Shown here: piece by piece, positions 1 to 9,960 of the stretch | Layout: every line of letters begins with the position of its first letter | Numbering within the stretch: position 1 is the stretch's first letter | From: an uncultured Clostridia bacterium | GTDB taxonomy: Bacteria; Bacillota_A; Clostridia; Christensenellales; CAG-138 | Length of the DNA stretch: 9,960 nt | Assembly (NCBI GenBank): GCA_946539625.1 | Contig: CAMNHT010000030.1 | Span: forward strand, 1 to 9,960 | Reading direction: 5' to 3' | Program-made: the position numbers and the translations under genes | The notes under the pieces: generated by a model | Databases searched by the model: none | The model's input: the letters and a program-made list of their open reading frames with translations, nothing else | What the model was told of the DNA's origin: nothing

Positions 1-126
1 CAGCGTAACAGCGTTACAACGTAACATATATTGTATATCTATATATAATCGGTCATCTATCTGTTACGATGTTACGATGTTACGCATAACACGCACACCC
101 CCTCCGTTACACGGAACAGAGATCGT
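1..126. repeat. GTTAC/GTAAC array in the 3' intergenic region
   Basis: This stretch lies downstream of the leftward operon and I see no gene in it. It carries seven copies of the pentamer GTTAC or its complement GTAAC. Three are at 5, 13 and 21 (start positions, alternating orientation) and three at 63, 71 and 79 (all GTTAC, two of them as the octamer GTTACGAT). One more is at 106. Within each triplet the copies are spaced exactly 8 bp apart, and the triplets flank about 37 bp of very AT-rich DNA. The whole block is roughly symmetrical around base 44. It could be a cluster of protein-binding sites for a neighbouring gene outside the window, a short tandem repeat, or part of a mobile-element end. 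The function is unknown; the repeat pattern itself is seen directly. Confidence 0.6.
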
Positions 127-795
127 TCAGATCTCAAGCGTCAGGTTTTTGCCGGTGATGCCGACAAACGCACCCTTCTCCGCCTGCGGAGAATCCGGAT
201 GGCAGATGAGCCACTTATTGCGCATCCAGAGAAGTCCCTCCTCTCCCGGCGCGGACGTGTTCACCGATTCCAAAGGCGCGTTGGTGCCGCGTTCCAATAC
301 AACAAGGCAGTTGAAGCCGGTATTCTGTATCCGGCACGGCGCAAAGTGCAGCACGCGCGGATGGATCTCAACGAGCGTTTCGGGCGGCAGATAAAAGCCC
401 TTCACGTCCCTCGAATCAAGCGTGCGGTTACAGACATCTTCGGGCAGTGCCAAAAGCAGAACGAGTCCGGTCGTCGAGTAATTGACCTCGCTGCATTTAT
501 GATACTCCTCGGCGTTCAGCGTAAATCCTCTGCCGTTACAGAAGCCCGCCTGGATCGGCATGCCGCCGTAAACGGTGCGTCCGATTTCTTTGATCGCGTC
601 AAGCGCTTCCAGCGCGGGATCGCCCGCGACGTACCGGTTGCCGCTTTCGGGGATGCCGGTCTGTTCCATCGCACGGGAAAGCGCGGCGGTATCGGTGCAG
701 GGCAGGATCCGCCCGTAAGGCGCGAATGCCGGATCGGTCACGGAAAACAACGGCAGATTTGGGTTCTTATGTTGAAGCTGTTCAAGGATCGTCAT
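127..795 (-). CDS. DUF4867 family protein, cupin-like
   Basis: A 222-residue soluble protein with no signal peptide or membrane segment. I recognise it as DUF4867, an uncharacterised family of Clostridia found beside sugar-metabolism genes. The central part looks cupin-like. His99 and Glu103 sit in an EYHKCSE stretch, followed about 30 residues later by a YLPPETLVEIHP stretch (135-146) and LHFAP (149-153, His150). This layout recalls the two metal-binding motifs of cupin sugar isomerases and lyases, but the fold and any metal are inferred. The start codon overlaps the stop of the ROK gene as ATGA (792-795), and a GGAGG lies 9 bases upstream inside that gene, so the two are translationally coupled. 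It is the last gene of the leftward operon. Possible roles are sugar isomerisation or epimerisation, or a sensor partner for the ROK regulator. The family call is fairly secure and the function is not known. Confidence 0.8.
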   Translation of the reverse strand: MTILEQLQHKNPNLPLFSVTDPAFAPYGRILPCTDTAALSRAMEQTGIPESGNRYVAGDPALEALDAIKEIGRTVYGGMPIQAGFCNGRGFTLNAEEYHKCSEVNYSTTGLVLLLALPEDVCNRTLDSRDVKGFYLPPETLVEIHPRVLHFAPCRIQNTGFNCLVVLERGTNAPLESVNTSAPGEEGLLWMRNKWLICHPDSPQAEKGAFVGITGKNLTLEI

Positions 796-2012
796 TCGAT
801 CATACCTCCGTTTTTGTAAAAGTGGATCGTGTACAAAAGTCCCGCCGCAAGAGACTCCAGCTGTCCGTTAAAACGGCTTTTCTCCATCGGCGCCGCATGC
901 GCGGCGTCCACGCCGACGTCCATTTCCGCCGAAAGGCGCGACATAAAATACGGATGCTCGAAAATCTCGCCGTACAGCACGAGCTTTCCGGGGTCGAGGA
1001 GATACACGACGCTTTTCAGCGCGTCCGCAAGCGCCTGTGCCGCGCGGTCCGCAATGTTTGATGCGCCTGCGTCGCCGCCGCGCGCCGCGTCTAAAACGAG
1101 TGCGGTCGTTACCGCGTCCCTGTCGCCGTTTGTCAGCTTCCATAGCAGCGGCGTTTCCGTTTCGGAGAGGATCGTCTGTGCATCCTCACGGATCGCCGCC
1201 GGAGACGCGATCGTTTCAAGACAGCCGGACTTGCCGCAGTGGCACGGCTTGCCCCCGCGCCGGATCACCGGGATATGCCCGATCTCCGCGCACTGCCGCC
1301 GATCGCCCTCAAAAACCTCATCGCCCGCGGAAAACGCCGCGCCGATGCCCGAGCCGCACCGCAGGAAAAAAAAGCTTTCCGGCTGTTCCTCGCCGGATAA
1401 AAACATCTGCGCCGATAAAAGCGCACGGACGTTGTTCGAAAGTACCGTGGGATAGCCTGTGTACGTTTCGAACCGATCGCAAATCGGAAAATCCGCCGTA
1501 TCGAGCGCATCGAAGCTCGTTTTGACGGTGCGTCCGTCCGTCCCGATCACGCCGCGTACGGCGATCCCGAGCCCAAGGATGCTGCTCCGGTCGACGCCTT
1601 TCGTTCTGCAAAGTGCAGGCAGCCGTTCGGAAAGCACCCGCACCGTTTCCTCTGCAGGCGCTTTGATCGGTATCGGCACGGTTTCGGTAACCATTACTTC
1701 CCCGTCCGTTCGCACGGCGGACAGAATCGCTTTTCCGAGCCCGATCGACACGCCCAGCGTACAGAACGAATCGGTTTTCAGCCGCAGCGTGATCTCACGC
1801 CGACCCGCGCCGTCGGACGGCTTGGCCCCCTCCTCGTAGACAAGTCCCTCGCCGATCAGCTCCCCGACGATCTTCGTCATTGCCGCGGGAGTCAGTCCGA
1901 GCATTGCCGCAAGGCGCTTCCTTGAAAGTCCGCCGTACCGGTGCAGGCACATGAGCACCGCGGCGCGGTTCTGCCGTTTCAGACCGATCATGTTGTCGCC
2001 TTCGGTCCGCAT
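792..2012 (-). CDS. ROK-family transcriptional regulator
   Basis: A 406-residue ROK protein of the NagC/Mlc/XylR type. Residues about 16-62 form a winged helix-turn-helix (recognition part TPAAMTKIVGEL). The rest is the ROK sugar-kinase-like fold, with the zinc signature CHCGKSGCLE at 257-266 and the EIGH motif at 243-246. In ROK kinases the conserved catalytic Asp follows Asn (ND). Here that place reads Asn193-Asn194, so sugar phosphorylation is unlikely and the domain probably only binds an inducer. The ATG at 2012 is preceded by GGGAGG with 8 bases spacing. A second ATG at 1991 also has a usable AAGG site and would remove only seven residues. The gene abuts the EamA transporter stop with no gap and overlaps DUF4867 by 4 bp. 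It most likely controls this operon and perhaps the divergent pair through the operator-like sites near 6470 and 6560; that is inference from position. Confidence 0.92.
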   Translation of the reverse strand: MRTEGDNMIGLKRQNRAAVLMCLHRYGGLSRKRLAAMLGLTPAAMTKIVGELIGEGLVYEEGAKPSDGAGRREITLRLKTDSFCTLGVSIGLGKAILSAVRTDGEVMVTETVPIPIKAPAEETVRVLSERLPALCRTKGVDRSSILGLGIAVRGVIGTDGRTVKTSFDALDTADFPICDRFETYTGYPTVLSNNVRALLSAQMFLSGEEQPESFFFLRCGSGIGAAFSAGDEVFEGDRRQCAEIGHIPVIRRGGKPCHCGKSGCLETIASPAAIREDAQTILSETETPLLWKLTNGDRDAVTTALVLDAARGGDAGASNIADRAAQALADALKSVVYLLDPGKLVLYGEIFEHPYFMSRLSAEMDVGVDAAHAAPMEKSRFNGQLESLAAGLLYTIHFYKNGGMIE

Positions 2013-2927
2013 TTATGCGTCCTCCCTTTTTTCCGGATGAAGCTTTTCGCGAAGCAGAATGATCACAGCGCCTAAGAGCACCACGCCGATCCCGACAAGC
2101 TTCCATACCGTCGGCTCCTCGCCGAGAAACAGTACGCCGACGATACAGCTCAAAACCGGCATCAAAAGAAGCCAAAGCTTTACGATCCACACCTCGTGAT
2201 GTTTGAGGTTGCGATAATAGAAGAAATAGATGCCCGTCTGCGCAAGTCCGCCGAGGAGTACGAACCACCAGAAACCCGGCGTTTCGGAGGGTTTCAATGC
2301 CGCAAGATCCCCACGGGAGACCGCAAAGAGCGCGAACAGCAGCAGTACGACAAAGTTATTGTAATACGAGATCGTGTCGGCTTTCTGCCCATGTCTGCCC
2401 TGCGCAGCCTTGATGATGAATGCATTCGCGGTCACGCATGCCGCGCTTGCGATAAAGAACAGGTCCGTCGGTCGGAAGGTCAGTTCCTTAAAATCCAGCC
2501 CAAGCACAAGCAGCACGCCTGCGAGCATCAGCAGCGTACCGATCCAGTCGGTGGCATAGAGGCGCTTTCGATAGATCGCGACGGTCAAAAGATTTACCAT
2601 CAGCACGTCGGTTTTCAAAAGCGCGGTCCCCGTGCCGAGCGACCCGCCGTTTGCATAGCCGAGGTTTGCGAACAGGTCCAGAAGAAACCCGAACACGCCG
2701 ATGATCACAAGGATCACCGTCGCCTTCCCCTGCCGGAACAGATCACGGAAACCGCCGGTAACCGCAAGCTGCACGGTCAGAAAGACGAGCGCCGCTGCGC
2801 GCAGCAAAAAGCCCGCCGCGTACGGGGATCCCGTCCGGTCCACCATGTATTTGCTGACTGCATAGTAGATCGTCCACGCGATCACCATGCCGGCGATCAT
2901 GCCGACGTCCTTCGTCCGTCCCTTCAT
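2013..2927 (-). CDS. EamA/DMT-superfamily transporter
   Basis: A 304-residue integral membrane protein with ten predicted helices, at about 7-25, 36-57, 69-90, 100-117, 127-145, 153-172, 188-204, 219-238, 248-268 and 275-293. This is the two-times-five arrangement of EamA (drug/metabolite transporter) proteins. The closing LGEEPTVWKLVGIGVVLLGAVI region is typical of the second EamA repeat. Members are mostly exporters or metabolite carriers of the cytoplasmic membrane. The substrate cannot be read from sequence. The start overlaps the stop of the upstream iron alcohol dehydrogenase as ATGA (2924-2927), and the stop is directly followed by the ROK start. Placement straight after a reductase suggests export of the reduced end product, or uptake of the pathway substrate. 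The family call is strong and the role is inferred. Confidence 0.9.
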   Translation of the reverse strand: MKGRTKDVGMIAGMVIAWTIYYAVSKYMVDRTGSPYAAGFLLRAAALVFLTVQLAVTGGFRDLFRQGKATVILVIIGVFGFLLDLFANLGYANGGSLGTGTALLKTDVLMVNLLTVAIYRKRLYATDWIGTLLMLAGVLLVLGLDFKELTFRPTDLFFIASAACVTANAFIIKAAQGRHGQKADTISYYNNFVVLLLFALFAVSRGDLAALKPSETPGFWWFVLLGGLAQTGIYFFYYRNLKHHEVWIVKLWLLLMPVLSCIVGVLFLGEEPTVWKLVGIGVVLLGAVIILLREKLHPEKREDA

Positions 2928-4021
2928 TGCAGTGCTTCGAACATACGCCGCAAGGCGCTTTCGTCCATCGGGACCGGGTTGTTGCCCATCAGCGGATGCT
3001 TCGCCGCGTCGCGGCAGAGCTTATCGAGATCGACCTCGCCGAGGTCGGAGAGCGTCATGCGAAGACCCGCAAGCTGTTTCAGCGCTCTGATGCGATCCGC
3101 AAGCTCGTCCGTTCCGGAAAGGCCGACGCGGCGGGCAAGCAGCGTGAGCCGCTCGTCCGCGTTGATGCGCACAAAGCTGTCGAGCGTGAACGCGCACGCC
3201 TCGCCGTGCGGCAGATGATAATCCTCGCTCAAAGGATAGCTGCACGCGTGACTGCCCGCGGTTTTCGGAAGCGCGAAGCTCATGCCGCCGAGCAAAGCCG
3301 CAAGCGACATGTTTTCGCGTGCCGCAAGATTTGTCCCGTCTCGGTACGCCGTTTCGAGGTTTTCGAGTACAAGCCGCACCGCCTCGATCGCGCAAAGGTC
3401 CGAGATCGGCTGATGGTTCCTGCTCCAGTAGCCCTCCAGCGCATGCGCCATTGCGTCAAGCCCGGTGTTCATCGTCGTGCGCGGCGGCACAGTCACGGTC
3501 AATGCGGGATCGACGATCGCGAGCGTCGGCATAAAGACCGGGTTGTTGATCGTCTTCTTTTCCCTGCCGTGGCTGATGACCGAGACCTGCGTGACCTCGC
3601 TGCCGGTGCCGGCGGTGGTCGGGACCGCGATCATCGGAAAACGTGTTTCGGGGAAAGGCGTTTCACCTTTGAAGCACGCAAGCGCGTCGGCGTTTTCCCG
3701 TGCGATCGCCGCCGTGAACTTTGCCGTATCCATGGTGCTGCCGCCGCCGACGCCGACGATCGCGTCGACCTGCGCTTTGCGCGCGAGCTGCGTCGCTTCG
3801 ATCACGCCGCTAAGCTTTGGATTCTCCTCCACGTCCGAAAAGACCGCCGCGATCTCCGGGATCTCCTTCTGCATCGCTTCGACGGTCGCGCGTAAAAACC
3901 GGTCGCAAACGACGAGGCAGCGGCTTGCGCCGAGTGAACGGATTTCTTCACCCAGATTCCTAATGCTGCCCGTTCCGAAGCGGATTCTGACCGGCTGCCG
4001 ATACAGAAACTCAAGCGCCAT
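2924..4021 (-). CDS. Iron-containing alcohol dehydrogenase (group III)
   Basis: A 365-residue member of the Fe-ADH family, near the usual 380. The N-terminal half binds the dinucleotide: GGGSTMDTAK at 92-101 contacts the pyrophosphate, and Asp40 after the second strand suggests NAD(H) rather than NADP(H), as in FucO. The metal site is complete. Asp189 and His193 lie in GLDAMAHALEG, His258 in AGSHACSYP and His272 in LPHGEACA, matching the Asp-His-His-His set of FucO. The second conserved segment TTAGTGSEVT is at 135-144. The enzyme should reversibly reduce a short aldehyde to an alcohol in the cytoplasm. Family members act on lactaldehyde, propanediol and, in gut bacteria, sulfoacetaldehyde. 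The start at 4021 has GAGGA 8 bases upstream and overlaps the isomerase by 11 bp. In this operon it most likely disposes of a short aldehyde left by transketolase cleavage while regenerating NAD+. The exact substrate is unknown. Confidence 0.93.
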   Translation of the reverse strand: MALEFLYRQPVRIRFGTGSIRNLGEEIRSLGASRCLVVCDRFLRATVEAMQKEIPEIAAVFSDVEENPKLSGVIEATQLARKAQVDAIVGVGGGSTMDTAKFTAAIARENADALACFKGETPFPETRFPMIAVPTTAGTGSEVTQVSVISHGREKKTINNPVFMPTLAIVDPALTVTVPPRTTMNTGLDAMAHALEGYWSRNHQPISDLCAIEAVRLVLENLETAYRDGTNLAARENMSLAALLGGMSFALPKTAGSHACSYPLSEDYHLPHGEACAFTLDSFVRINADERLTLLARRVGLSGTDELADRIRALKQLAGLRMTLSDLGEVDLDKLCRDAAKHPLMGNNPVPMDESALRRMFEALQ

Positions 4022-4487
4022 AGATGCCGTCCTCGATCTTTTGGACTTCTGCGGAAAACTTATGCATGTTCACCGCGCGCCAGTCCTCGAGCCCCTCGCA
4101 CCATTCGGTGTTCAGGAACGCCTTGACCATCTCGATCGCCATCTCGGGTCCGACGATCCAGCCGCCCATGCACAGCACGTTCGCGTTGTTGATCGCGCGC
4201 GCCATTCTCGCCGAATAGACGCCCTCGCACGCAACGGCGTGAACGCCCTTGAACTTATTGGACACAACGCACATGCCCGCGCCGGTGCCGCAGATCAGGA
4301 TCGCCTTTTCATAAGTACCGTTCTGCACGAACGGCGCGACGTCGCTCGCCACGCGGTAGTAGGGATGGACTTCATTGAGATCTACGGTACCGAGGTCGTC
4401 AAACGCGACGCCCGCCTCGGTAAGGTATGCCTTGATCGCTTCCTTGACGGCAAAGCCGGATTTATCGCTTCCGATTGCAAGTTTCAT
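4011..4487 (-). CDS. RpiB/LacA/LacB-like isomerase with altered active site
   Basis: A 158-residue protein of the ribose-5-phosphate isomerase B / galactose-6-phosphate isomerase family. The frame extends to an ATG at 4505, but an AAGGAGGAG site lies 6 bases before the ATG at 4487, so I use that start (MKLAIGSDKSG). The fold signatures are present: IGSDKSGF at 5-12, LICGTGAGM at 64-72 with catalytic Cys66 and Thr68, and YSARMARAINNANVL at 91-105. Compared with E. coli RpiB as I remember it, several catalytic positions differ. The DH pair reads Asp8-Lys9, the ring-opening His99 is Ile99, and the phosphate-binding Arg110, Arg133, His134 and Arg137 are Trp110, Asn140, Met141 and Phe144. The general-base Cys and the anion-hole loop remain, so aldose-ketose isomerisation is still expected, but of an open-chain and perhaps non-phosphorylated substrate. 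True ribose-5-phosphate activity seems unlikely. Confidence 0.88.
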   Translation of the reverse strand: MKLAIGSDKSGFAVKEAIKAYLTEAGVAFDDLGTVDLNEVHPYYRVASDVAPFVQNGTYEKAILICGTGAGMCVVSNKFKGVHAVACEGVYSARMARAINNANVLCMGGWIVGPEMAIEMVKAFLNTEWCEGLEDWRAVNMHKFSAEVQKIEDGIYGA

Positions 4488-4493
4488 AAGATT

Positions 4494-4502
4494 CTCCTCC
4501 TT
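4494..4502 (-). promoter_or_regulatory. Ribosome binding site fixing the isomerase start
   Basis: On the minus strand this reads AAGGAGGAG, an almost full match to the anti-Shine-Dalgarno sequence. It sits 6 bases before the ATG at 4487-4485. The alternative ATG at 4505-4503 lies upstream of this site and has no comparable one of its own, so it is unlikely to be used. Confidence 0.8.
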
Positions 4503-4549
4503 CATTATTTGATCTTTTCAGTAATCAGCGCGGAAGAATGATTGACCTT

Positions 4550-4672
4550 CACCTCATCCGCCGCCTGACGGCGTCACCTTCCCCATCAAGGGGAAGGCTT
4601 TTGGGGGTACAAATGCAGAGACTTCTCCCCCTTGAGTGTGGAGAAGCTCCGCGAAGCGGTGATGAGGGGGTC
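4550..4672. repeat. Palindromic intergenic repeat (MITE/REP-like)
   Basis: This block of about 123 bp fills the only sizeable gap in the leftward operon, between the transketolase C-subunit and the isomerase. Its ends are inverted (CCTCATC at 4552-4558 against GATGAGG at 4661-4667) and it is made of nested hairpins. The clearest is a perfect 8-bp stem, 4577-4584 with 4590-4597, around a 5-base loop. Further stems are GCCG/CGGC near 4562-4572 and CTTCTCC/GGAGAAG at 4622-4628 and 4639-4645. No run of T follows the stems on the transcribed (minus) strand, so it does not look like an ordinary intrinsic terminator and read-through is plausible. It resembles dispersed palindromic repeats I associate with Clostridia genomes; copy number elsewhere cannot be seen here. 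It may act in mRNA processing or differential stability between the two halves of the operon. Confidence 0.7.
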
Positions 4673-4682
4673 CTTCTTCCTC

Positions 4683-5609
4683 TCATTTGAGCGCGACCGC
4701 TTCCCGTGCGGTCTTGATGATGTTTTCTTTTGTCAATCCCATCGTTTCCTTGAGGTACGGGAGTTTGCCGACTTCGCCGAAGCGATCCTGAACGCCGACC
4801 GATTTTACCGGGATCTTTTCTTCCGCAAGCGCTTCGAGCACCGCGGAACCGAGCCCGCCGATGACGTTGTGGTTTTCCACCGTCAGCACGGCATGGGTCT
4901 TCCTTGCCGATGCAAGCACCGTTTCGCGGTCGATCGGCTTGATCGTATGGACGTTGATCACTTCGCAGGAAACGCCTTCCTTTTCGAGCGCTTCCGCCGC
5001 GTCCAGCGCGTCCTTTGTCAGCATACCGGAGACGAAGATCGAAAGGTCCGTGCCCTCTTTGAGCGTGTCCGACTTAAAGAGATCGAACTTGTAATCCGCG
5101 GGAAATACGTCGGGCAGTTCCTTTCGGAACAGGCGGATATAGACCGCGCCGTCATAGTCGTTCAGCACCGGCATGGCTGCCTTTAGCTGCACGCCGTCGA
5201 CCGGCTCGAAGATCACGAGTTCCGGGATCGAACGCAGCACTCCGATATCCTCCATGCTCATGTGCGTACCGCCGTTCAGCTCCGCCGAGATGCCCGGGTC
5301 GGTGCCGACGATCTTCACGTTCTGCTTTGCGTACGCGATCGAGATCGCGATCTGATCGCAGATGCGGCGCGAGGCAAACGGCGTAAAGCTTTCGATCCAC
5401 GGCTTAAATCCGTAGCTACTAAGTCCCGCCGCGATCGACGCCATGTTTTGCTCCGCGACGCCGCAGTCAAAGATCTGCGTACCGTAGAACTGTTTGCGAA
5501 GTCCCACCGTGCCGCTCGCCTTTGCAAGATCCGCATCCAGAAGCACGACATGTTTGTCCGCTTCCATGAGCTGTTTCAGACATTCTGCATAAATTGCCCG
5601 CATTTCCAT
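4683..5609 (-). CDS. Transketolase, C-terminal subunit
   Basis: A 308-residue C-terminal half of a split transketolase, carrying the pyrimidine-binding domain and the C-terminal domain. It pairs with the N-subunit encoded just upstream to form the thiamine-diphosphate active site. The cofactor-activating Glu is Glu53 in CGVAEQNMASIAAGL. GGTHMSMEDIGVLRSIP at 113-129 is the usual active-site His segment (His116). Of the residues that bind substrate phosphate in E. coli TktA, Arg4 and Arg162 appear kept. The His of the THDSIG-like segment is Asp104, and the nearby Asp of GEDG is Asn112, suggesting a changed donor or acceptor. The start at 5609 is chosen because GGGGAGG lies 7 bases upstream. An ATG at 5615 would overlap the N-subunit stop but sits only one base from that site. 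The enzyme moves two-carbon ketol units between cytoplasmic sugars. Confidence 0.92.
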   Translation of the reverse strand: MEMRAIYAECLKQLMEADKHVVLLDADLAKASGTVGLRKQFYGTQIFDCGVAEQNMASIAAGLSSYGFKPWIESFTPFASRRICDQIAISIAYAKQNVKIVGTDPGISAELNGGTHMSMEDIGVLRSIPELVIFEPVDGVQLKAAMPVLNDYDGAVYIRLFRKELPDVFPADYKFDLFKSDTLKEGTDLSIFVSGMLTKDALDAAEALEKEGVSCEVINVHTIKPIDRETVLASARKTHAVLTVENHNVIGGLGSAVLEALAEEKIPVKSVGVQDRFGEVGKLPYLKETMGLTKENIIKTAREAVALK

Positions 5610-5611
5610 GG

Positions 5612-6439
5612 TCATGCCTCCCCTCTGATCTCGCGGATCGCTGCTTCCGCCTGCTCCGCTGTGACATTCGTGTTGTGGTTGCCTGCGCCGAGCTCCTCGA
5701 TCCATTTGACGCCGCAGCCCTTCTTGGTGTTCAGGATCACCATCGTGGGCTTACCGGAACCGATGCCGAGCTTTGCGTGCTGTACCGCAGCGCTTACCTC
5801 GTCGATGTCGTTGCCGTCCTCGACGTCGATCACGTTCCAGCCGAACGCTCTCCATTTTTCGTCCAAAGGCGCAATGCCATTGACTTCTTCGACCGTCCCG
5901 TCGATCTGCAGCTTGTTGTAGTCGGTGAACGCGATCAGATTGTCGAGCTTTTTGCTTGCCGCGAACATCGCCGCTTCCCAGATCTGTCCCTCCTGCGTTT
6001 CGCCGTCGCCGATCAGCGTATAGATCGTCGCGCCGTCATTTTCGAGCTTACTGCCCAATGCGACGCCCACCGCGCAGGAAAAGCCCTGTCCCAAGGATCC
6101 CGTCGTCATGTCGATGCCCGTGGTGCGGTTCATGTCGCAATGGCTCGGCAGGTTCGTGCCGCCCTGATTCAGCGTCAGAAGCGCCGCCTTATCGAAATAG
6201 CCGCGGTTAGCAAGCGTTGCGTACACCGCAGGGCCTGCGTGTCCCTTCGAGCAGATGAAGCGGTCGCGTCCCGCCTTTTTCGGCTCGTTCGGGTCGATGT
6301 TCATTGCTTCAAAATACAGTACCGTGAGTAACTCGACGACCGAAAGGCAGCCGCCGATGTGCCCGACGCCGAGGTGTCCGATGCAGGTTAATACGTCGCA
6401 GCGGATATCCTTTGCGATCTCCCGTAAATTCTGTTCCAA
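5612..6439 (-). CDS. Transketolase, N-terminal subunit
   Basis: A 275-residue N-terminal half of a two-subunit transketolase, binding the diphosphate end of thiamine diphosphate. The thiamine motif begins with GDGETQEGQIWEAA at 144-157 and ends with DYNKLQIDG at 173-181 (Asn175). Conserved active-site parts are GHIGGCLS with His27, SKGHAGPAVYA with His67 and TGSLGQG at 113-119. The start is TTG at 6439, since no ATG lies near and AAGGAG is 9 bases upstream; the resulting MEQNLREIAKDIR matches the usual N-terminus. Split transketolases are common in Clostridia, either as housekeeping copies or as specialised copies in sugar clusters such as the apulose-4-phosphate and sulfofructose transketolases. 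Promoter-proximal placement ahead of an isomerase and a reductase points to a specialised copy. It is the first gene of the leftward operon. Confidence 0.93.
   Translation of the reverse strand: MEQNLREIAKDIRCDVLTCIGHLGVGHIGGCLSVVELLTVLYFEAMNIDPNEPKKAGRDRFICSKGHAGPAVYATLANRGYFDKAALLTLNQGGTNLPSHCDMNRTTGIDMTTGSLGQGFSCAVGVALGSKLENDGATIYTLIGDGETQEGQIWEAAMFAASKKLDNLIAFTDYNKLQIDGTVEEVNGIAPLDEKWRAFGWNVIDVEDGNDIDEVSAAVQHAKLGIGSGKPTMVILNTKKGCGVKWIEELGAGNHNTNVTAEQAEAAIREIRGEA
5617..5623 (-). promoter_or_regulatory. Ribosome binding site for transketolase C-subunit
   Basis: Minus-strand GGGGAGG, located inside the end of the N-subunit gene. The spacing is 7 bases to the ATG at 5609 but only one base to the ATG at 5615, so it favours the shorter product and indicates translational coupling of the two subunits. 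Confidence 0.6.
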
Positions 6440-6466
6440 ATCCCTGTTCTCCTTCTATTTAATTAA

Positions 6467-6480
6467 TTTTGTTAACCAAA
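6467..6480. promoter_or_regulatory. Operator-like palindrome at the leftward start site
   Basis: The 14-mer TTTTGTTAACCAAA is a palindrome with a single mismatched pair, centred on GTTAAC. It covers the expected transcription start of the transketolase operon (about 6477), a classic place for a repressor to block initiation. The ROK regulator of the operon is the obvious candidate; binding is inferred. Confidence 0.45.
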
Positions 6481-6483
6481 TGT

Positions 6484-6512
6484 ATTTTATCTTTACGTAC
6501 GGTCGTTGTCAA
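6484..6512 (-). promoter_or_regulatory. Sigma-A promoter of the transketolase operon
   Basis: On the minus strand, TTGACA (6512-6507) is followed after exactly 17 bases by TAAAAT (6489-6484). That is a perfect -35, an ideal spacer and a 5-of-6 match to the -10. The expected start of transcription is near 6477, leaving a leader of about 38 bases to the TTG start codon. Confidence 0.85.
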
Positions 6513-6523
6513 GGGAAAAAGCA

Positions 6524-6552
6524 TTGACTTTCAACCGTCTTTGGATTATGAT
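6524..6552 (+). promoter_or_regulatory. Sigma-A promoter of the isomerase/phosphorylase-like pair
   Basis: TTGACT (6524-6529), a 17-base spacer, then TATGAT (6547-6552): each box matches the consensus in 5 of 6 places. The expected start is near 6559, about 32 bases before the ATG at 6591. Its -35 is separated by 11 bases from the -35 of the leftward promoter, so the two polymerase sites are back to back and could be controlled together. Confidence 0.85.
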
Positions 6553-6573
6553 TGATTAAAAGATTGAATCAAT
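6551..6573. promoter_or_regulatory. Operator-like inverted repeat at the rightward start site
   Basis: ATTGATT (6551-6557) and AATCAAT (6567-6573) are a perfect 7-bp inverted repeat with a 9-base centre. ATTGA recurs at 6563-6567, giving an overlapping second palindrome (ATTGA-A-TCAAT, 6563-6573). The site overlaps the -10 end and the predicted start of transcription, so it is well placed for repression. It does not obviously match the leftward palindrome at 6467. Confidence 0.45.
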
Positions 6574-6590
6574 TCGAAGGAGAACGATCC

Positions 6591-7931
6591 ATGAAGGAAT
6601 TCACCCCCGTTTATGTTCCGGTCGGCGTCGGCACATTTCATATGGAAAGCGCCGAGGACGCGTTTGTCCGCTCGTGCGCCGCGCTGAAGGCGCTTGACGA
6701 CCGCTTTGTCTGTCCCGCGGAAAAGCTGCTTTCGGTCGATGCGCTGAAGGCGTATCTCGAGCCGCTTTCCCCCGATCTCATCGTCTTTCAGAACCTGACC
6801 TTTGCAAACGCCGCCTATATGTCCGAGGTGCTTCGCCGTGTGAACTGCCCCATCGTCCTCTGGACGCTTCGTGAGCCGGTCATCGACGGCGGACGGCTTC
6901 GGCTGAACTCGCTTACCGGCGCGTACTCCGCGGCGAACACGCTCCGCGCGTTCAACGACCGTCCGTTCCTCTACGTGTTCGGCGCTCCGGAGGAGGCGCG
7001 GGTCAAGGAAGAACTCAACGCGGCGATCTCGGCGGCGTCCGTCATGCACGCCATGCGTTCTTTGAAGATCGCGGCGATCGGGCACACCCCGCAGGGCTTC
7101 GGCTTCGGCCGCGCGCTCGATACGGAAATGATGAACACCTTCGGCACGGAGCTTGTTTCGATCGAAGCGCGGGAGCTCATTGACCGCGCAAAGAACTATA
7201 CCGACGAAGAATGCAAGCCGTATCTTGAAAAGACCGCCTGCGCGACCTGCGGACTGGACTGCACGCCCGAAAAGAACCGTCTCGACCACGCGCGGCTCTA
7301 TAAAGCATACAGCGACTGGATCAAAGAAAACAACGTCGATGCGCTCGCGTCGCGCTGCTGGCCGGACTTCTTCACCGCGTTCGGTACACCCGTCTGCACG
7401 GTGCTGTCGATGCTCAACGACGACGGCGTCGCCTCCGCCTGCGAAGCGGATATCTACGGCGCGCTGTCCATGTGGGTGGGCATGCGGCTTTCCGGCGCTC
7501 CCGTCTTTTTCGGCGATCCGGTCTCTTTGGACGAGAACGAAAACACGATCACGTTCTGGCACTGCGGCGCGGCGGCGTGCTCCATGGCGCGCAAGGACAC
7601 CGGCGCGGTCGTCGGCGTGCATCCGAACCGCAAGATCGGTCCCGCCATGGATTTCGGCTGTGAAGCGTTTGACGGCGCGACGGTCTTCCGCATCGGTCGT
7701 GAGCCGGACGGCTCGTTCCGCTTCTTCCTCACCGAGGGCACGGCGCTCGACAAGCCGAAGCAGTTTACCGGCACGAGCATCGTGATCAAAACCGACAGCC
7801 CCGCCCGCGAGATCGTTGAAGACAGCGTGCAGGACGGCTTTGAGCCGCATTTCGTCGTGATCCGGGGGCGTCACGCAAAGACGCTCGAAGCGCTTGCGAA
7901 CTATTACGAATTCCCGGTCTATCGGTACTGA
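6591..7931 (+). CDS. L-fucose/L-arabinose isomerase-like protein
   Basis: A 446-residue member of the FucI/AraA-like isomerase superfamily (COG2407 type). These enzymes convert an aldose to a ketose using a divalent metal. The frame runs back to 6552, but AAGGAG lies 8 bases before the ATG at 6591, giving MKEFTPVYVPVG. The N-terminal half has the alternating fold of the family. The C-terminal half carries the metal and catalytic positions: Glu285 in ASACEADIYGALSM, Asp309 in VFFGDP, His324 in FWHCGAA and His420 in FEPHFVV. A Cys-rich stretch at 217-224 (CATCGLDC) is unusual. The gene is divergent from the transketolase operon and 3 bases upstream of the phosphorylase-like gene. It probably makes the ketose that transketolase cleaves. 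Family membership is clear; fucose or arabinose as the substrate is not implied, because no fuculose or ribulose kinase or aldolase is nearby. Confidence 0.88.
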   Translation: MKEFTPVYVPVGVGTFHMESAEDAFVRSCAALKALDDRFVCPAEKLLSVDALKAYLEPLSPDLIVFQNLTFANAAYMSEVLRRVNCPIVLWTLREPVIDGGRLRLNSLTGAYSAANTLRAFNDRPFLYVFGAPEEARVKEELNAAISAASVMHAMRSLKIAAIGHTPQGFGFGRALDTEMMNTFGTELVSIEARELIDRAKNYTDEECKPYLEKTACATCGLDCTPEKNRLDHARLYKAYSDWIKENNVDALASRCWPDFFTAFGTPVCTVLSMLNDDGVASACEADIYGALSMWVGMRLSGAPVFFGDPVSLDENENTITFWHCGAAACSMARKDTGAVVGVHPNRKIGPAMDFGCEAFDGATVFRIGREPDGSFRFFLTEGTALDKPKQFTGTSIVIKTDSPAREIVEDSVQDGFEPHFVVIRGRHAKTLEALANYYEFPVYRY

Positions 7932-7934
7932 GCC

Positions 7935-8684
7935 ATGATCACCGATTCCTTTGACAACAGATCGGAACCGCTGTTCACGCCCGAACAGTTTCTCGGCCCG
8001 CAAAAGCACTTGTGCGATATCTGCATTCTGACCTTTTCGCACGTCATCTTAAAGGAGCTGCAGACGCGCTTTGCGCTGCGCGAGATCGGCAGTCTCGATT
8101 CCGCCAACGGCAGCCGTCCGGTCTATGCGTTTGAACTCGGCGGCATGACGCTTGCGGTGCTGCTCTGCGGCATCGGCTCGACCATCGCCGGAAACGACGT
8201 GATCGAGCTGAACTGGGAGATCGGCGCGACGCAGTTCATCCTGTTCGGCTCGGCGGGCAACCTGAACCGCGAAGCGACAACCGGAAAATACGTGATCCCG
8301 ACCGAAGCGTACCGCGACGAAGGCATGTCCTATCACTACGCCCCGCCCGCGGACTATATCGCGATCAAAAACGCGGACAAACTCGCGGCAATGTTTGACG
8401 AGCTGCGTCTGCCGTACGTCAAGGGACGCGTGTGGACGACCGACGCGTTCTACCGCGAGACGCGGGATCTGGTCGCGGCGCGGCAGAAAGAGGGCTGTCT
8501 CGCCGTCGAAATGGAGCTTGCGGGCGTCGAAGCCGTCTGTGATTTTTACGGCTTCGAGCTGTATAATTTCCTCGTCACCGGCGACGTTCTGGATGCGCCG
8601 GTCTATGAAAACGGCGAGCTTCGCTCCGCAAACCACGATCTGGACAAGCTCGATATCGCGCTTGAGATCGCAAAGCGGATCTGA
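7935..8684 (+). CDS. Nucleoside phosphorylase-like protein lacking the phosphate site
   Basis: A 249-residue PNP/UDP-family protein, closest in layout to uridine phosphorylase. The family core is visible: CGIGSTIAGNDVIEL at 78-92, FGSAGNL at 104-110, SYHYAPPADY at 132-141, WTTDAFYRET at 167-176 and AVEMELAG at 190-197, whose Glu192-Met193-Glu194 contact the ribose in relatives. The phosphate pocket is not conserved. The PGDPxR loop of uridine phosphorylase reads TFSHVI, so Gly26 becomes Phe34 and Arg30 becomes Ile38, and Arg91 of RIGTTG becomes Leu103. Phosphorolysis is therefore doubtful. Hydrolysis of an N-glycoside, or action on another glycoside, is more likely. The start at 7935 is 3 bases after the isomerase stop, with no clear ribosome site of its own, so translation is probably coupled. 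The family is secure and the activity is uncertain. Confidence 0.85.
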   Translation: MITDSFDNRSEPLFTPEQFLGPQKHLCDICILTFSHVILKELQTRFALREIGSLDSANGSRPVYAFELGGMTLAVLLCGIGSTIAGNDVIELNWEIGATQFILFGSAGNLNREATTGKYVIPTEAYRDEGMSYHYAPPADYIAIKNADKLAAMFDELRLPYVKGRVWTTDAFYRETRDLVAARQKEGCLAVEMELAGVEAVCDFYGFELYNFLVTGDVLDAPVYENGELRSANHDLDKLDIALEIAKRI

Positions 8685-8721
8685 GCGACAACGAAGGATC
8701 TTTACGAAACAGGCGTACACA

Positions 8722-8751
8722 AAAACGGCACGGATCGATCCGTGCCGTTTT
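8722..8751. terminator. Bidirectional intrinsic terminator (perfect 30-bp palindrome)
   Basis: Bases 8722-8736 are the exact reverse complement of 8737-8751. The RNA would form a stem built on ACGGCACGG/CCGTGCCGT with an ATCGAT loop. It is flanked by a T run on the right (8748-8751) and an A run on the left (8721-8725), so U tracts follow the hairpin in both directions. It lies between the convergent ends of the phosphorylase-like gene and the symporter gene and should terminate both. Confidence 0.9.
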
Positions 8752-8764
8752 GAGTTGTCAGCGA

Positions 8765-9960
8765 TTATTCGGCATTCTGTTCGCGGAGGTACTCTTCCTT
8801 TTCGACCTGGAGCGCGTCGATGCGCTTCTTGGAAAGCGGATAGACGAACCGTAGGATGATGAACACCAGCAGGAACAGCGCGGCGGGGATCATGACTGAG
8901 TAGTTGTACATGGTATTCAGCGCGTCGGGTGTGAGACCTTCGGTCTTCAGCTGGCTGCCGTTGTAGCCGATGATGAGAAGCGGCACGTTGATGAGGATCG
9001 TCGCCACGGTCTGACCGAGCTTGCGCATGAAGGAATAGAATGCGTAGCTCGTCGCGTCGTCGTTCAGCTTATAGGTGACCTTGTTGTAGTCGATCGCGTC
9101 GTTCGCAAGCGCCCAGATCAGCAGGAAGATGAACGCGGTGCCGATGCCGGCGACGAGGTTTGCCGCAAGGTACAGCCACACGTTCGTAACGCCGAACAGC
9201 GCGAGCACGAACAGCACGAGATAGAACGCCGCGGCGGCAAGCACGCCGTAGGAGCAGACCTCGCGGCGACCGAATTTATTGCCCATGCGCGTTGCGAAGA
9301 ACATGATGACCGCGACCGGAAGATACTGGAACACGGTCGGCAGCATGGTAAGACCCTGCTTATTGAAGAACTTGTCGAAGAGGTACGCGTTGTAGCCCTG
9401 TCCGAACATCTGCGCCGCAAGGAACAGCATGGACGCGATCGAAACCGCCATAAACGGACGGCTCTTCAGGAGCGTTTTGACGACCTTCCACGTCTGTCCC
9501 TTTGCCTTCGGGTCGGGATGCGACGCGACGCGCTCCTTGCTCCAGCCGTAGCAGAGGAAATAGAACACGACGGAAAGCACGGCGATGACGGTGACACCGA
9601 TGATCGTGATGGTGGGATCCATGACCTTCATTGCGTTGCCGTTTGCGTCGAGGATCTTGTTGCCGCTCTCATCAACCATCGCGACATAGCAGAAAGATGC
9701 AAGCACCATCGCCGGCATTGCGCCGAACGTGGAGCCGATCGAACGGAACACGGACAGCGACGAACGTTCCTTGTCATTCGAGGTGATGACCTGCGCCATC
9801 GAACCGTACGGAATGTTGATACAGGTATAGAGCATGCCGAACAGGATGTACGTCGCGTAGATCCATACGATACGCCACGTCATTGCAAAACCTTTGACGT
9901 TTAAAAACATCAGGATCGCCGAGATCGCGACCGGCACGGCAAAGATCTTCAGCCAGTGGC
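8765..9960 (-). CDS. GPH-family sugar:cation symporter (5' end missing)
   Basis: The frame stays open to the window edge, so about 398 C-terminal residues are seen and roughly the first 60-80 are missing. The first ATG/GTG-like codons inside the frame are internal. It is a polytopic membrane protein of the glycoside-pentoside-hexuronide:cation symporter family (MelB, XynB/YnaJ, GusB, YihO). The NIPYGSMAQVITSNDKERSS stretch (about 9760-9820) is the family signature before a cytoplasmic loop, and ANDAIDYNKVTYK (about 9060-9100) matches the second-half D-x-x-DY signature. A hydrophilic C-terminal tail follows the last helix. Such carriers bring in sugars or sugar glycosides with Na+ or H+. The sulfoquinovose carrier YihO belongs to this family, as do many xyloside and uronide carriers. 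It converges on the isomerase pair and probably imports the substrate of the cluster. Confidence 0.92.
   Translation of the reverse strand, partial: HWLKIFAVPVAISAILMFLNVKGFAMTWRIVWIYATYILFGMLYTCINIPYGSMAQVITSNDKERSSLSVFRSIGSTFGAMPAMVLASFCYVAMVDESGNKILDANGNAMKVMDPTITIIGVTVIAVLSVVFYFLCYGWSKERVASHPDPKAKGQTWKVVKTLLKSRPFMAVSIASMLFLAAQMFGQGYNAYLFDKFFNKQGLTMLPTVFQYLPVAVIMFFATRMGNKFGRREVCSYGVLAAAAFYLVLFVLALFGVTNVWLYLAANLVAGIGTAFIFLLIWALANDAIDYNKVTYKLNDDATSYAFYSFMRKLGQTVATILINVPLLIIGYNGSQLKTEGLTPDALNTMYNYSVMIPAALFLLVFIILRFVYPLSKKRIDALQVEKEEYLREQNAE

Follow-up and report, generated by a model that had tools for sequence, protein, structure and literature searches.

A predicted sulfo-transketolase cassette for sulfoquinovose catabolism in uncultured Clostridia

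Plant membrane lipids contain the sulfonated sugar sulfoquinovose (SQ). The sulfo-transketolase (sulfo-TK) pathway has been described from Clostridium sp. MSTE9 (SqvD, SqwGH, SqwI, SqwF, SqwE) and from Faecalicatena, and its last sulfonated aldehyde is sulfoacetaldehyde, which is reduced to isethionate (PMC9594981, PMC11659671; the pathway is also treated in PMC12890257). According to PMC13219744, 4.7% of Oscillospiraceae genomes carry the pathway, cow rumen microcosms convert SQ to isethionate, and transcription of sulfo-TK genes occurs in rumen Caproiciproducens, Candidatus (Ca.) Limivicinus and Sphaerochaetaceae. In this study, a window of 9,960 nucleotides from an uncultured Clostridia bacterium (contig CAMNHT010000030.1, positions 1 to 9,960) was analysed, and its ten genes, eight on the minus strand and two on the plus strand, very probably form a catabolic cassette for SQ by the sulfo-TK pathway, as judged from sequence. 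Since PMC13219744 already reports sulfo-TK genes and isethionate in rumen bacteria, the cassette is regarded as a new member and not as a new pathway; the original prediction, which had considered a possible new relative, is corrected in this respect.

According to published descriptions, the cassette has in common with MSTE9 and Faecalicatena (PMC9594981, PMC11659671) an SftI/SqvD-like isomerase, a split transketolase with the RAFDR motif, an RpiB-like isomerase and a metal-dependent alcohol dehydrogenase (ADH); DUF4867 is common in such clusters. It differs from them in having a probable GPH importer and, by analogy with relatives, a GH31 instead of an ABC transporter, and in its EamA carrier. 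The window also lacks a transaldolase, and some members of the family carry a nucleoside phosphorylase-like protein. With Ca. Limivicinus sp900317375 and the other rumen bacteria of PMC13219744 it shares the setting in rumen Clostridia and sulfo-TK genes accompanied by YihQ; in the text of that paper as searched, no residues, motif, GPH or phosphorylase are named.

From gene content, gene order, conservation and residue signatures the following route is predicted. SQ or an SQ glycoside would enter through the GPH symporter, the probable importer, and the GH31 encoded just past the window would free SQ, with DUF4867 possibly assisting ring opening. The isomerase (SftI) would convert SQ to 6-deoxy-6-sulfofructose, from which SqwGH would transfer C1-C2 to glyceraldehyde-3-phosphate; xylulose-5-phosphate and 4-deoxy-4-sulfoerythrose would result. 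The latter would be converted to the ketose by the RpiB-like SqwI, SqwGH would remove a second C2 unit, leaving sulfoacetaldehyde, and the iron-type ADH (Fe-ADH) would reduce this to isethionate, for which the EamA carrier is the probable exporter, its substrate and direction being predicted like the direction of the GPH symporter. The phosphorylase would not be needed. This is the best reading on separate lines of sequence evidence, namely the family and tree of the isomerase, the transketolase motif, the Fe-ADH and RpiB residues, the relation of DUF4867 to SqvB and the GH31 in relatives, all of which support the transketolase-type sulfoglycolysis put forward in the original prediction. The end product named there, dihydroxypropanesulfonate, should be replaced by the C2 compound isethionate, formed from sulfoacetaldehyde (PMC9594981, PMC11659671).

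The isomerase had a single NCBIfam match at E <= 0.001, the SftI model NF048012. In a tree of 55 rows, from which rows whose aligned stretch overran the open frame were excluded (L001 and L002 among them), it was placed in a clade of 29 with support of 99/98, and the more distant AraA/FucI relatives were outside this clade. The clade also takes in isomerases of clusters with FBA- or aldolase-like genes, PFK-like genes and ABC transporters (names by eye); two of these loci carry a YihQ-family GH31 (L113, L115), and L113 also carries DUF4867. The isomerases found on plasmids reached at most 33.2% identity.

The motif RAFDR has been assigned to sulfofructose transketolase and RSFHR to phosphate-using enzymes (PMC11659671). 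The window transketolase has R6, A33, F80, D106 and R164, that is, RAFDR and not RSFHR. Among 33 distinct segments with at least 60% identity (window included), 30 have RAFDR, two RSFDR and one KSFDR, and the 47 other transketolase segments comprise 24 with RSFHR, 13 of a Cys/Asp kind, three with RSFDR, three with RSFYR, two with KSFSR, one with RAFDR and one with RSLHR. The sole RAFDR among these others belongs to L245, a diverged cassette, and Ala and Asp were found together in cassettes only. Four of four relatives (G002, G003, G004, G011) carry another split transketolase, with Cys and Asp in the motif, slightly more than 1 kb past DUF4867 and separated from it by one malic-enzyme-like gene (L192 1932-3741; L194 15968-17776; L196 1956-3765; L202 4688-6497). 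This enzyme may serve as the housekeeping transketolase of the lineage, so that the phosphate motif there could be unusual too.

The RpiB-like protein is set apart from housekeeping RpiB by residues 10 and 99. All 29 cassette rows have Lys in place of E. coli His10 and Ile in place of His99, with Cys66 retained, and in other RpiBs from the 16 genomes searched both positions are His in all 14 aligned (the weak match L362 did not align); both His are also present in L052 (34% identical), which lacks Cys66. His99 of RpiB has a role in ring opening, and 4-deoxy-4-sulfoerythrose has no 4-hydroxyl, so that a furanose is impossible. The loss of His99 therefore fits such a tetrose substrate, and by family and gene place the protein is predicted to be SqwI. 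For the Fe-ADH, the best solved relative is 6jko (BkTauF) with 265.8 bits, versus 167 for the next. F252, T257 and F265 (as Tyr) are retained in 35 of 35 cassette rows, the window enzyme also shares the metal ligands of BkTauF, and Tyr at F265 is seen in BkTauF homologues too (PMC6616044). The authors of that paper link BkTauF to taurine use, and its Gln196 is His in the window Fe-ADH, as in other homologues. The fetched loci also contain four further Fe-ADHs, in which F252 is present but T257 is replaced by L or D and F265 by H.

These residues bear on the possibility that housekeeping pentose phosphate genes, or those of a D-apiose type pathway, stand together here by chance, which is considered highly improbable. 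Split transketolases are indeed common, the C half being matched in 322 of 398 genomes at E <= 1e-50, but a separate split transketolase is present in these genomes, most searched genomes have a separate RpiB with ordinary residues, and the cassette copies differ from housekeeping ones in identity and active-site residues; the original prediction had named grouping with housekeeping copies, together with activity on phosphosugars only, as contrary evidence. In the D-apiose transketolase pathway, a kinase acts ahead of the split transketolase. Such a kinase was not present among the ten window proteins, the ROK regulator aside, in agreement with the earlier remark on D-apiose, and the isomerase matches the SQ isomerase model only. 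In the family search of the ten proteins no sugar kinase was found, as had been claimed, the single kinase-like gene encoding the ROK protein with its MarR-type HTH. In the flanks of six relatives inspected by eye, neither a sugar kinase nor an aldolase, which had been named as contrary evidence, directly adjoins the cassette; an FGGY-kinase-like gene was noted in G009 at a distance of about 12 kb (L198). Of the loci of the best 80 of 361 phosphorylase relatives, 13 have isomerase and transketolase genes arranged as in the window, and the isomerase was observed in 21 of 103 genomes of the family of G002 (G002 included), indicating that the cassette is no chance assembly.

The nearest non-cassette transketolases (L130-L132, 46-48% identity) were set aside; they lie in inositol-use-like clusters by eye, and their genomes had no isomerase match at E <= 1e-40. 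At L189, L190 and L191 (G063, G362, G248), split transketolases of the RSFDR kind, 46-48% identical to that of the window, were observed in inositol-use-like clusters by eye; L189 and L191 include IolB/D/E-like, PGK and GAPDH-like genes. It would be unusual for a transketolase to act in such clusters.

The only solved relative of the DUF4867 protein is 9gyy, SqvB of B. megaterium, and the metal ligands E97, H99, E103 and H150 are found in the window protein as well as in all 23 rows. The original prediction had left DUF4867 and the phosphorylase unexplained; the former corresponds to SqvB/SftX of many SQ clusters (PMC9594981, PMC11968277), and the latter is not core. In PMC11968277, 15 of 127 members of the DUF4867 cluster are in sulfo-TK neighbourhoods, with no activity detected, and a second, small cluster (14 members) showing the same kinds of gene is assigned to pentose phosphate metabolism.

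A check for a sulfoquinovosidase past base 9960 had been proposed, and a YihQ-family GH31 gene was observed directly upstream of the GPH gene, that is, past this base, in six of six relatives with this flank read (G002, G003, G004, G009, G010, G011); by analogy, one is expected in the window's own genome. The domain PF01055 was present in all six, the NF007746 (YihQ) cut-off was passed in four of four tested, and YihQ (5aed) and SftG (6pnr) rank among the six best solved relatives. With these two the relatives' GH31 shares the nucleophile D405, the acid/base D472, Q262, Q288 and W304, and it differs from them at R301 and Y508. R301, W304 and Y508 of YihQ are taken here to be the sulfonate-binding residues.

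Several observations weigh against the assignment to SQ. R301 is replaced by Gln and Y508 by Phe in 18 of 18 GH31s with at least 65% identity to that of G002 (two further rows being second segments of the same sequences), so that W304 alone of the presumed sulfonate-binding set is kept, and the same holds for 27 distinct rows of a later, larger set (the 10 canonical rows of which contain one reference sequence two times). The isomerase score lies under the SftI model cut-off of 700; the model was matched at E <= 1e-40 in 26 of 398 genomes of the phylum without the cut-off being passed in any, so that little weight can be given to the low score by itself. The motif Asp is found outside cassettes too (13 Cys/Asp and three Ser/Asp rows) and is therefore no proof of sulfofructose use by itself, and Ser replaces Ala in three of the 33 cassette transketolase rows. 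The EamA carrier is not tied to the SqwE of the literature, and the likeness to MSTE9 and Faecalicatena is drawn from published descriptions.

The GH31 residues leave room for the same chemistry acting on another C6-modified alpha-glucoside, the C6 group of which would not be bound via Arg301/Tyr508, with another C2 product. Both replacements occur in every GH31 of this type examined, and a canonical GH31 is missing from the assemblies of 28 of the 34 genomes that carry the cassette (a further one, G656, has a partial GH31 of this kind), but a canonical QQRWY GH31 is present in five of the 34, in closely related, orthologous cassettes, as the sole match in G527 and G682 and alongside the divergent GH31 in G423, G708 and G481. 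No operator-like site of the kind found between the divergent arms (Table 1) was detected upstream of GH31 in nine of nine loci, six of which are informative (L213, L232 and L235 have none at the isomerase promoter either), which would also suit another substrate; the transketolase motif and the Fe-ADH residues, on the other hand, suit a sulfonate, and R301Q with Tyr508 retained was observed in three other YihQ-family GH31s (L115 1749-3761, L215 11939, L216 5692), that of L115 adjoining an SftI relative. Another glucoside is thus considered unlikely, and SQ is preferred as the substrate.

The divergent GH31 is 35-36% identical to two other sulfoquinovosidase-type GH31s. In L238, the canonical GH31 adjoins ABC-transporter-like genes and the divergent one adjoins GPH (names by eye). 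The presence of two GH31s in G708, G481 and G423 may be compared with the two yihQ copies of Ca. Limivicinus and the several YihQ clades reported in PMC13219744. A literature search for QQRWY/KERWY returned, among the matches listed, unrelated words only.

Between the divergent arms, two sigma-70-like promoters with 17-base spacers (11/12 and 10/12 matches) and two operator-like palindromes were found, with no further sites of the latter kind in the window (0.05 expected; the pattern was derived from the right site, so that its own match is built in). A like palindrome is present at the isomerase promoter in 10 of 12 relatives. The ROK protein has neither DxGGT nor the catalytic Asp (by eye), which we take to be the ROK kinase motifs, and it is probably a regulator without kinase activity that governs both arms from the divergent promoter. 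Since no operator-like site was detected upstream of GH31 in the six informative loci, the GH31-GPH pair may be under separate control. It is a tentative idea, held with some doubt, that this pair is a second gateway into sulfoglycolysis, in which the sugar would be recognised without Arg301/Tyr508, by sulfoquinovosidases with a rebuilt sulfonate pocket or by glycosidases that act on a different SQ conjugate or C6-modified glucoside, and in which uptake would be regulated independently of the core pathway.

In 13 of 13 fetched cassettes having it, the phosphorylase gene lies 2-3 bases behind the isomerase gene, which could point to a nucleoside-derived (N-linked) sugar, with the phosphorylase making the first cut and the isomerase acting on its product. 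The original prediction had held this equally open. It is now rated as very unlikely, because the phosphorylase is beside the isomerase in only 12 of the 21 isomerase-bearing genomes of the G002 family, is missing there in the other nine, is absent from all 18 loci read from the genomes of the G410 family, and stands without a cassette in 67 of 80 loci, a set biased toward the phosphorylase as the loci had been fetched with it. Cassette and stand-alone copies are intermixed in the phosphorylase tree (L318, L319, L320 and L328 are cassette copies despite their 'alone' label). The idea of the phosphorylase as key to a new pathway was dropped, as it is optional in the family census. No relative of it was found on viral contigs by tblastn, and no paper combining sulfoquinovose, nucleoside phosphorylase and gene cluster was found in the literature searched. 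We take the phosphorylase to be accessory cargo, not part of the core of the sulfo-TK cassette; any role in supplying the transketolase with pentose phosphate is speculative. The interval between isomerase and GPH holds other genes in L213 (11438-12484), L271 (10683-11681) and L232 (7468-9954), by eye encoding carboxypeptidase-like and phosphatase-like proteins and one of 828 aa, as though this interval served as a site for cargo genes.

In the family of G410, a metagenome-assembled genome (MAG) titled Oscillospiraceae, the isomerase was found in 16 of 300 genomes (G410 included). Eighteen loci were read from genomes of this family, of which L215 and L216 are of another type. Among the remaining 16, both transketolase halves are present at 66-83% identity in 12, L245 has a diverged set, and L213, L234 and L244 have no transketolase in the stretch read. 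The carriers are uncultured Clostridia, of which several come from the stomachs of ruminants. In the G006 MAG, two cassettes on different contigs and an extra stand-alone phosphorylase were observed (L006, L008, L010), and this MAG may be a mixed bin.

The features of the window are listed in Table 1. The genes claimed within 4011-9960 in the original prediction were all present where placed, and the gene set is real and forms one unit, of which Fe-ADH, EamA, ROK and DUF4867 fall outside that range. The two plus-strand genes sit between the GPH gene and the run from transketolase to DUF4867 on the minus strand. For the isomerase, the ATG at 6591 is a likelier start than the TTG at 6552, with in-frame stops ahead of the ATG in several relatives by alignment. 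On the far side of GH31, lysine-fermentation-like genes were observed by eye in four relatives (L193 2661-8959; L195 11426-17554; L197 1989-8288; L203 11553-17681).

Table 1. Genes and regulatory sites of the window, with the basis of each assignment.
Feature	Position	Strand	Basis
DUF4867 protein (SqvB/SftX-like cupin)	127..795	-	PF16161, 226 bits
ROK-family transcriptional regulator (probable)	792..2012	-	PF00480 and MarR-type HTH
EamA carrier	2013..2927	-	PF00892
Fe-ADH, SqwF-like	2924..4021	-	nearest solved relative 6jko (BkTauF)
RpiB-like isomerase (SqwI-like)	4011..4505	-	PF02502; active-site residues
Transketolase C half, SqwH-like	4683..5615	-	PF02779 and PF02780; RAFDR residues
Transketolase N half, SqwG-like	5612..6439	-	PF00456
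Operator-like palindrome, left	6459..6479	.	3 mismatches to the pattern from the right palindrome
Promoter-like site, transketolase arm	6484..6512	-	TTGACA-17-TAAAAT; 11/12
Promoter-like site, isomerase arm	6524..6552	+	TTGACT-17-TATGAT; 10/12; aligned in relatives
Operator-like palindrome, right	6552..6572	.	like sites in 10/12 relatives
SQ isomerase, SftI/SqvD-like	6591..7931	+	NF048012, 387.6 bits (cut-off 700); tree
Nucleoside phosphorylase-like protein, accessory	7935..8684	+	PF01048 (PNP_UDP_1)
GPH symporter, 5' end past the window end	8765..9958	-	PF13347; TIGR00792 under cut-off

The residue signatures of SqwI and SqwF may aid in separating SQ clusters from look-alikes. Where yihQ is used as a marker of sulfoquinovosidase, surveys may include enzymes with a sulfonate pocket unlike that of YihQ. 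The cassette adds lineages to the gut bacteria that apparently turn the sugar of plant sulfolipid into isethionate, which is feed for sulfide producers.

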